This document shows positions 56,386 through 58,572 of a stretch of DNA of 64,000 nt, piece by piece. The translations under genes and the position numbers were made by a program. The stretch comes from Pedobacter sp. ASV12 (GTDB lineage: Bacteria; Bacteroidota; Bacteroidia; Sphingobacteriales; Sphingobacteriaceae), in contig NZ_JAELUC010000002.1 in assembly GCF_016429155.1 (NCBI RefSeq), positions 62,001 to 126,000 on the forward strand, read 5' to 3'. Position 1 is the stretch's first letter; each line of letters opens with the position of its first letter. A model generated the notes under the pieces. The model worked only from the letters and a program-made list of their open reading frames with translations. It was not told the DNA's origin and made no database searches.

Positions 56386-57033
56386 ATGAAAGTAGCAGTA
56401 ATCGGGGCCACGGGTTTTGTTGGCCAAAACTTAACAGCAGAATTGGCCAATCGTGGCCACCAGGTCATCGCCATTGCGCGTAATGTAGCTTCTGTGGCCC
56501 AAAATGAACACGTAACGGCAAAAACCGCCGATGTAAGCGATGTTGAATCTTTGGCCGGAGCCCTGAAGGGTGCCGATGTTGTGGTAAGCGCATTTAATGC
56601 AGGATGGACCAACCCAAATTTGTATGCCGATTTTATCAAGGGATCTGAGGCTATACAAGCCGCCGTAAAGCTGGCCGGTGTATCCCGTTTAATCGTTATT
56701 GGTGGCGCCGGAAGTTTGTTTATTGATGGGCACCAATTGGTAGATGGCCCTGATTTTCCGGCCGAATACAAAGCTGGCGCAACAGCTGCCAGGGATTATT
56801 TGAACGTCCTTAAAAACGAACAGGAAATCAATTGGACCTTTTTTAGTCCGGCCATAGAGATGCATCCGGGCATTGATACCGGCCGTACCGGCAATTATCG
56901 GTTGGGTTTAGAAAATCCAGTGTTTAATGCCGAGGGCAGAAGCATACTTTCTGTACAGGATTTAGCGGTTGTTATTGCCGATGAGGTAGCGAGCAACCAG
57001 CATGCCAGGCAAAGGTTTACCGCTGCTTATTAA
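56386..57033 (+). CDS. NAD(P)H-binding protein (NmrA/SDR-like)
   Basis: A 215-residue atypical short-chain dehydrogenase with the Rossmann start MKVAVIGATGFVGQNL and FFSPAIEMHPGIDTGRTG later. There is no Tyr-x3-Lys. Homologues often follow Rrf2-type regulators and respond to oxidative or electrophile stress. A bidirectional terminator follows. The pairing with the Rrf2 operator suggests control by the neighbour. Confidence 0.87.
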   Translation: MKVAVIGATGFVGQNLTAELANRGHQVIAIARNVASVAQNEHVTAKTADVSDVESLAGALKGADVVVSAFNAGWTNPNLYADFIKGSEAIQAAVKLAGVSRLIVIGGAGSLFIDGHQLVDGPDFPAEYKAGATAARDYLNVLKNEQEINWTFFSPAIEMHPGIDTGRTGNYRLGLENPVFNAEGRSILSVQDLAVVIADEVASNQHARQRFTAAY

Positions 57034-57040
57034 AAATAGA

Positions 57041-57075
57041 AAAGCCAGCTTCTTGAGGTACGAAGCTGGCTTTTT
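57041..57075. terminator. Bidirectional intrinsic terminator
   Basis: Stem GCCAGCTTC / GAAGCTGGC (9 bp, 9-base loop) with TTTTT after it on the plus side and TTTTCTATTTTT on the minus side. It lies between the NAD(P)H-binding gene and the leader-peptide gene. Confidence 0.9.
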
Positions 57076-57094
57076 AAAGTTTTTTTGGCTTTAA

Positions 57095-57328
57095 CTAAAA
57101 GTAGATGCACTGCGAATCGTCTTCAGAATAGCCATCCTTGCCTGCGCAATAGCTAGCCCAATTGCTGGGCGCGCAATCAGGTACGTTAATCGGGTCGCCA
57201 ATCAAGGCTACGTACCTGGTACGACAGTACATCACCGCCTGGTCGCCGCCAATGTGGCCAACGGTTTCGCCATCTCCACCCGTTACGTTTTTCATTTCAG
57301 CTTTGCTGAGCAAATTTGCTTTTTTCAT
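57095..57328 (-). CDS. Double-glycine leader peptide precursor with four cysteines (RiPP/bacteriocin-like)
   Basis: A 77-residue peptide. Residues 1-18, MKKANLLSKAEMKNVTGG, match the Bacteroidota GG-leader style (L-S-K-x-E-M-K-x-V-x-G-G), with cleavage expected after Gly18. The 59-residue core has Cys35, Cys52, Cys61 and Cys74, a second GG at 27-28, many Asp residues and ends CIYF. Such precursors are normally processed by a C39 peptidase/transporter and sometimes by modifying enzymes; none is nearby. The ATG at 57328 is used; the frame is open 20 codons upstream. Confidence 0.8.
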   Translation of the reverse strand: MKKANLLSKAEMKNVTGGDGETVGHIGGDQAVMYCRTRYVALIGDPINVPDCAPSNWASYCAGKDGYSEDDSQCIYF

Positions 57329-57543
57329 ATTGAGGATCTTTTGTTTAGGTGGTTGCAAGGGTATGCGCCATTGCTCGCTGTTGAACATAAACCAATTGTT
57401 CCTAAGTAAAATCTAACTTATCCAAATGTTCTTTCATTTCAAAGCAGCGGAAATGGTTGTAAAAAAATAGAGCATTTTGCCGATTTGCACAGATTTTTTT
57501 TTTCTTCAATAAAAGACAACAAAATCGTTCTTATCTTCGTTGC

Positions 57544-58572
57544 ATGTATCGGCTAGTCAAACCTGTATTTTTTAAGTTCGACCCAGAAAATGTCCACTAT
57601 TTTGTGGTAAAGCGTCTCAAATGGTTCCACGATTATTTTCCGTTGGGCAAAACCATTCTGCGCAGCAGTTTTGATATCCATCTAAAAGGGCTGGAACGCG
57701 AGGTTTTTGGCCTCAAATTCAAAAACCCGGTAGGTTTGGCTGCGGGTTTCGACAAAAATGGCGAATATGTAGAGGCCTTGAGCAATTTGGGCTTTGGTTT
57801 TATAGAGGTCGGAACCGTTACGCCATTGCCTCAGCCGGGCAACGACAAGCCCCGGATGTTCAGGCTGGAAGAAGACGAAGCCTTGATTAACCGCATGGGC
57901 TTCAACAACAAAGGAGTCGACGTCATGGCCGAACGTCTGCGTTTGCTCAAACAAAAAGAACCTCACATTATTGTAGGTGGCAATATTGGCAAAAACAAGA
58001 GTACGCCAAACGAAGAGGCCACCAGCGATTACATCAAATGCTTTGATCGTTTGTTTGATGTGGTTGATTATTTTGTGGTGAACGTAAGTTCGCCCAATAC
58101 GCCCGGATTAAGGGCCCTGCAAGAAAAGGAGCCGTTGAAAGAATTGCTCCATACCTTGCAGCAACGCAACCGCAAAAACGATATTTCGAGGCCAATCCTC
58201 CTTAAAATAGCTCCCGATTTAACCAACGAACAATTGGACGATATTGTGGAAATTGTGAAAGAAACGGGCATTGCAGGCGTAATTGCAACCAACACCACAA
58301 TTGACAGGAACGGCTTATATACCGAAGAAAAGCTGAAAAGCGAAACCGGTGGTTTGAGCGGCAAGCCTTTAGCCAAAAGGTCTACCGAGGTTATCCGTTA
58401 CCTTTCCGAAAAATCGAATAAGTCGTTCCCTATTATTGGGGTAGGAGGCATCCACTCGCCGGCCGACGCCCAGGAAAAAATAGAGGCAGGCGCTTCTTTG
58501 GTGCAGCTGTATACGGGCTTTATTTACGAAGGACCGGGGCTGATCAAGCGAATCTGCAAGGCTTTGGCTTAA
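57544..58572 (+). CDS. pyrD: Dihydroorotate dehydrogenase, class 2 (quinone-dependent)
   Basis: Oxidises dihydroorotate to orotate in pyrimidine synthesis. The 342-residue protein has the class 2 N-terminal membrane-associating helix region ([12 protein letters not shown]...[10 protein letters not shown]), then the barrel: [29 protein letters not shown] and the catalytic Ser segment [34 protein letters not shown] binds FMN phosphate. The 57329-57543 gap before it contains no other gene I can support. Confidence 0.96.

Follow-up and report, generated by a model that had tools for sequence, protein, structure and literature searches.

A double-glycine leader peptide gene beside pyrD in Pedobacter, its dispersed relatives and a candidate 5' RNA element

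The peptide gene and its site

We analysed a 64,000-nucleotide stretch of the Pedobacter sp. ASV12 genome (the window), in which a short gene on the minus strand encodes a cysteine-containing peptide behind a double-glycine leader. The features of the locus are as follows.

57041..57075, no strand assigned: inverted repeat and then a T-run, lying where the peptide gene and an NmrA-like gene converge at their 3' ends; seen by eye only
57095..57328, minus strand: precursor peptide gene, 77 aa, ATG at 57328, TAG at 57097-57095; homologues known
57275..57328, minus strand: double-glycine leader MKKANLLSKAEMKNVTGG, 18 residues; leader profile E 5.2e-11
57098..57274, minus strand: acidic core, 59 residues, with Cys at 35, 52, 61 and 74
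57321..57435, minus strand: possible decayed copy of a 5' RNA element; the best match of model R2 in 56900-57700 with no filters, and weak

The 77-residue gene with an 18-residue GG leader and a four-cysteine core that a first-pass annotation had proposed is thus present, on a strand that the annotation did not give. An in-frame ATG at 57388 upstream would yield an alternative 97-residue product, and 57328 is the likely start because the paralogue and the homologues in Pedobacter sp. Hv1 described below begin with MKK. Cleavage is predicted after the GG of the leader. In its own genome the leader stands above chance, both with a leader profile whose members include this leader (the E value listed above) and with NF047798, an independent NCBI model (E 0.035). 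NF047798 (leader_Chryseo, 'bacteriocin-like protein') was also the best NCBIfam match of the leader, with residues 7-18 on profile positions 7-18, yet the protein scored below the curated cut-off (E 0.0053; 16.9 against 23.5 bits).

The core has a net charge of -6. A structural model built from only four sequences gave pLDDT block means of 76-90 over residues 31-77 and values below 50 for the leader, and predicts that the core is a folded mini-domain. The peptide had no match in Pfam or in phage and plasmid records, a PDB sequence search returned nothing convincing (best E 0.66), and the model gave no fold match at E≤0.001 or Z≥2 with Foldseek and VIA-align.

The peptide gene is divergent from pyrD (dihydroorotate dehydrogenase) and convergent with a gene for an NmrA-like NAD(P)H-binding protein (PF13460), itself preceded by an Rrf2 regulator gene; the site had been described as lying between a stress gene and pyrD, of which only pyrD stands. 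The inverted repeat between the convergent 3' ends is a probable two-way terminator. We recognised no immunity candidate or partner gene between the NmrA-like gene and pyrD, and neither a TlpA-like thioredoxin protein nor a LytTR regulator beside the peptide gene. The NmrA-like gene lies ahead of pyrD in 14 of 20 relatives, which were chosen by handle, with a gap of 90-184 nt in 12 of them and of 317 and 431 nt in the other two. No GG peptide was found in this gap in any of the 14, which makes acquisition of the gene in the window lineage the best reading. The two longer gaps (L151 and L155) have in common a sequence around AAACCTTGGCGAMGCGGTTATGGCAAG that may be a dispersed repeat of intergenic regions.

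Related cores, machinery on contig C77 and dispersed precursors

The assembly (4.48 Mb, 403 contigs, 93.8% complete) contains a paralogue with the same core on contig C110 (55% identical). In one scan of a genome contig collection, from which genomes very near the window's were possibly left out, homologous cores occurred at a single further locus, where Pedobacter sp. Hv1 has two such genes in tandem. When the four genes are aligned, the four cysteines and both leader glycines are invariant and the cores vary, so the outcomes that the first-pass annotation had named as refuting were not seen; the Hv1 cores each carry two cysteines beyond the shared four. Between the window gene and its paralogue 15 of 18 leader residues and 26 of 59 core residues are identical, and the nucleotide differences in the core number 31, 26 and 33 at codon positions 1, 2 and 3. 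This near-equal distribution fits fast diversification and is also compatible with relaxed constraint. It would likewise suit a non-expressed leftover, namely a single insertion beside pyrD that is now drifting with a worn 5' element, as would the lack of a peptide at this site in the 14 relatives with the same neighbourhood. Against such drift, the frame, the leader and all four cysteines are intact although the core departs from that of the paralogue at 33 of 59 residues; the 5' region, which also bears on this reading, is considered below.

Only two C39 domains (PF03412) exceeded the cut-off in the assembly, both on contig C77, where the gene order is a precursor, a C39-like/VKOR/thioredoxin fusion (528 residues), two precursors, a C39-ABC transporter (728 residues) and an HlyD-like frame (160 residues). 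Precursor leaders on C77, such as MKRKNLLSKAEMKNVLGG, are near-identical to that of the window gene, and the cores behind them differ from its core. The HlyD-like frame ends about 57 nt before the contig end and covers about one third of a 439-residue Hv1 protein, which passes PF13437 and to which it is 72% identical; alone, it falls under the Pfam and NCBIfam cut-offs. Either the contig edge accounts for its shortness or the gene is truly truncated; a search at the end of contig C321 did not recover the remainder. Judged by gene order only, C77 may adjoin C321, in which case one of the seven distant precursors counted below would not be distant. Other machinery could be missing from the assembly, given its completeness and its number of contigs.

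When eight fusions were aligned with three transporters, using the DCGPTC motif that we take to mark the catalytic cysteine of C39 peptidases, this cysteine was replaced by asparagine and the histidine position was also replaced in all eight, and the VKOR and thioredoxin cysteines were invariant in all eight. The C39-like domain of the fusion may be a leader-binding module. In G001 the best leader match adjoins the fusion gene, and in G009 it lies between the fusion and C39-ABC genes.

The association was examined in 145 genomes of the genus, with thresholds of E<1e-5 for the leader and E≤1e-10 for the fusion. The leader profile gave 79 matches in 30 genomes, and the fusion was matched in 68, a few of these matches being partial or distant. 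The fusion was present in 28 of the 30 leader genomes and in 40 of the remaining 115 (Fisher p 2.9e-9, uncorrected for phylogeny). Of the 79 leader matches, 48 lay within 15 kb of a fusion gene. Two leader genomes gave no fusion match: G065 carries a C39 domain and G158 (84% complete) carries none; some of the 40 genomes with a fusion and no such leader use another leader type. C39 domains as such cannot discriminate, because they occur in 127 of the 145 genomes.

The remaining 31 leader matches are farther than 15 kb from any fusion gene or sit on a different contig; 12 of these distant precursors are in Hv1 and 7 in the window genome, indicating that the window gene is one of a dispersed set. 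Its isolated position had been called unusual; it does stand apart from the machinery, but it is not unique in this. To judge by flanking proteins, the precursors on C266 and C364 of the window genome occupy the same sites as those at C9:221519 and C4:611265 of Hv1, with cores that look alike by eye, and C110, Hv1 C8 and G158 C65 have a common site with different cores. The site running from feoB/SprT to pyruvate dehydrogenase holds a whole cluster in G100 and only two precursors in Hv1, where the machine is on C4. TlpA-like (AhpC-TSA/Redoxin) genes directly follow cluster precursors at L139:5383-6558, L139:7002-8360, L145:7709-8869 and L147:6658-8001, and their products are candidate partners or immunity proteins.

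Cysteine parity was counted in cores collected from all fetched loci by a leader pattern, excluding cores shorter than 20 or longer than 110 residues. Among 120 distinct cores, 113 had an even, nonzero number of cysteines, 6 an odd number and 1 none; after thinning to <50% identity the corresponding numbers were 91, 5 and 1 of 97. Cysteine made up 10% of core residues, compared with 2.4% overall in 1520 control ORFs taken as mechanical frames from the same loci, where 495 frames with at least two cysteines divided into 336 even and 159 odd. The median core charge was -4, and only 1 of the 120 cores was positive. This parity fits fully disulfide-bonded secreted peptides. The near-identical leaders beside the C39-ABC transporter and fusion on C77, the co-occurrence across the genus and the even cysteine counts together support the first-pass proposal that the gene product is disulfide-rich and is secreted after processing by machinery from another part of the genome, including a C39 transporter.

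The same annotation had offered, as a second possibility, a modified product of the TIGR04149 kind. On such a reading the leader would direct a radical-SAM enzyme of the SPASM type, which would turn the cysteines into thioether or other cross-links. TIGR04149 does appear among the weak matches of this leader and of several relatives' leaders, but its score of 14.0 bits falls short of the curated cut-off (25), and no SPASM match was found at E≤0.01 in the 93.8% complete genome by a search that was positive in 8 of 14 control genomes. The genome instead encodes the VKOR/thioredoxin fusion, and cysteine parity points to disulfides. With the cut-off failed and no SPASM protein found, we regard a radical-SAM product as very improbable.

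A candidate RNA element upstream of the peptide genes

A pattern of about 97 nt recurs upstream of GG-leader peptide genes and comprises three hairpins (P1, P2 and P3) and a pseudoknot. In a sequence-only MAFFT alignment of 27 copies, which were chosen by eye for clarity, 82% of structure cells were paired, compared with 35-42% in slid controls; P3, partly misaligned there, was 59% paired. Changes on both sides were seen in 21 of 24 pairs in these copies, and none of 500 shuffles reached any of the measures. From a 43-copy alignment, RNAalifold predicted P2 and part of P3, and each of the 11 pairs showed a compensating change in one or more sequences. The pseudoknot read CGC/GCG in 41 of 47 rows of an alignment that was fitted to the model and so leans towards the structure; five of the six deviating rows still pair, two of them through changes on both sides.

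Model R2 gave at least 95 matches at E≤0.01 in at least 48 of the 145 genomes. These counts are a lower bound because only 28 candidates were scored per genome, and matches to the 47 training copies are expected because those copies come from the same genomes. In 83 of the 95 matches the start codon of a short ORF of the GG-leader type followed 16-31 nt downstream, under a permissive automatic rule that accepted leaders ending in GG, GA or GS. Among these 83 are genes with leaders of type GEVLTRAQLRKVMGG, as in G140 and G149, from genomes that the leader profile (LLSKAEM) had left unmatched. The other 12 matches comprise those in G030, G159:C26 and G144, one before a C39-ABC gene in G100, four before other ORFs and four without an ORF. 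Those in G030, where the leader ends in AG, and in G159:C26, where a peptide match lies 64 nt on, look like precursor genes that the rule missed, and in G144 a truncated leader follows. The G100 copy lies upstream of the C39-ABC gene itself (L143:4729-4825; G100:C1:1299728-1299823), suggesting co-regulation of machine and cargo.

Two further observations concern the range of the element. Three matches in L205 (G079:C2:197883 and 200645) and L219 (G078:C1:1477984) are followed by closely similar sequence that is not a peptide gene. In L055, L056, L111, L134, L039 and L040 the 5' sequence is a variant with low or no R2 score, mostly with a TTTTTACGTGGTAAAAA-type hairpin and CGT/ACG in place of CGC/GCG, and looks like a subtype.

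At 14 loci of scattered precursors searched with the R2 filters off, L137 had a clear copy, L132 and L056 had weaker ones (24.1 and 22.4 bits) and L055 and L134 marginal upstream copies (16.5 and 11.1 bits); for L033, L039, L040, L129, L130, L131, L133, L135 and L136 the matches listed included none ahead of the only peptide gene or the first of several. A clear copy was thus missing from most of the scattered genes tested, as it was from the C110 paralogue. In Rfam, six loci matched no family at E≤1, and six further loci gave sub-threshold matches only, none near the gathering score. One candidate, a Pistol ribozyme in L169 (20.7 bits, E 6), lay at 1422-1485, ahead of the element, and was taken as a chance match.

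The -7 box of Bacteroidota has the motif TAnnTTTG. It was found at the expected place upstream of the element in none of 47 copies, and plain TTTG occurred upstream of 20 of 47, a control stretch having it in 8 of 47. Given its orientation and spacing, the element is more likely to be a cis-acting RNA than a DNA recombination site. Among the matches listed in a search of the titles and abstract openings of the open-licence literature, we found no description of the element, of a C39-like/VKOR/thioredoxin fusion for such peptides or of a dispersed layout served in trans, and a folded RNA before many GG-leader peptide genes is apparently undescribed so far. As described by Weinberg et al. (2010, PMC2864571), the Downstream-peptide RNA motif (RF01704) is a structured 5' UTR element before short ORFs without a known family; it resembles the Pedobacter element in being structured and 5' of short ORFs and differs in being cyanobacterial.

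The window's own copy is weak. With the filters off, R2 scored it at 15.0 bits (E 0.0028) in 56900-57700, with P1 at 57431-57425/57389-57383, P2 at 57374-57368/57361-57355, and no P3 or pseudoknot. In the whole window the same match ties for first at E 0.22, and model R1 with default filters did not report it; by itself it is therefore not significant. It is at best a decayed P1-P2 remnant whose value lies in its expected location. The absence of the P3 hairpin and pseudoknot would agree with a drifting leftover, but several other intact precursors also lack a clear element, and together with the intact frame, leader and cysteines this leads us to consider a leftover decidedly unlikely.

Taken together, these findings raise the possibility, at somewhat less than even odds, of an undescribed class of cis-acting RNA (about 97 nt, three hairpins and a pseudoknot, ending 16-31 nt before the start codon) that would control disulfide-rich secreted peptides in Pedobacter. 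These peptides would have in common a leader code and a machine for export and oxidation, the fusion recognising the leaders, and the window gene would be a dispersed member with a worn RNA copy.

Known systems, proposed pathway and significance

Class II microcins of the microcin V type are GG-leader peptides of Gram-negative bacteria that are exported by C39-ABC and HlyD proteins and in some cases contain disulfides. The system described here is like them in its small GG-leader peptide and in the C39-ABC transporter and HlyD-like partner encoded in the genome. It differs in having one machine for dispersed precursors, a VKOR/thioredoxin fusion and no recognised immunity gene, and we claim no sequence similarity.

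The bacteroidetocins (class IIf) provide a comparison within the same phylum. According to Coyne et al. (2019, PMC6671954), their leaders have 15-16 residues and end in GG, cleavage at this site was seen by LC-MS/MS, their mobility is redox-dependent and their cores are basic (+2 and +6). The precursor gene lies beside genes for a C39-ABC transporter, a thiol oxidoreductase and a five-TM protein. Bacteroidetocins kill Bacteroidales, with BamA as the reported target. The likeness to the window peptide extends to a double-glycine leader, four cysteines (bacteroidetocins A and B), a C39-peptidase ABC transporter and a thiol oxidoreductase. By comparison, the window leader is longer (18 residues), its core is acidic (-6), its oxidase is the C39-like/VKOR/thioredoxin fusion, and its precursor lies away from the machinery, counterparts of two genes of the bacteroidetocin region being on C77. 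We class the system as a variant of the bacteriocin-type peptides that have GG leaders and are exported by C39 transporters.

We read the window gene, with a probability of about 0.75, as encoding the precursor of a microcin-like peptide that is secreted, carries disulfide bonds and is predicted to be processed in trans. In the proposed pathway, the leader would be recognised by the C39-ABC transporter of C77 and cut after GG, and the core would be exported through the ABC and HlyD-like proteins, with a TolC-type protein providing the exit through the outer membrane. The four cysteines would be oxidised by the fusion protein of C77, its VKOR and thioredoxin domains making the disulfides, whereas its N-terminal C39-like domain, in which the catalytic Cys and His are absent, may do no more than hold the leader. 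A single machine would thus serve scattered precursors in trans, the window gene included.

The disulfide topology of the peptide and its role in competition or signalling are presumptive. The likeliest role is that of a putative microcin-like competition peptide, on which we place about even odds, and signalling ranks next. As a signalling peptide, the product would be a pheromone and not a toxin, and its sensor would be a two-component system of the LytTR type, like those near some clusters. LytTR response regulators do adjoin precursor clusters in Hv1 (L128) and G065 (L139), and the acidic cores contrast with the basic ones of the bacteroidetocins. LytTR regulators are, however, common in Bacteroidota, none was recognised beside the window gene, and the use of one leader for many divergent cores would be odd for a pheromone with a single receptor. 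Signalling is accordingly judged unlikely, if less so than a drifting leftover.

If the secreted, trans-processed peptide reading is true, precursors need not adjoin their machinery, and mining based on gene clusters misses many of them; the leader and the 5' RNA element could then locate precursors regardless of their cores. The set comprises about 100 divergent disulfide mini-protein cores behind related leaders and offers a natural test of leader recognition versus cargo. The RNA element itself is a candidate for binding a ligand or a protein, and ties a structured 5' sequence to secreted peptides of competition or signalling in Bacteroidota.
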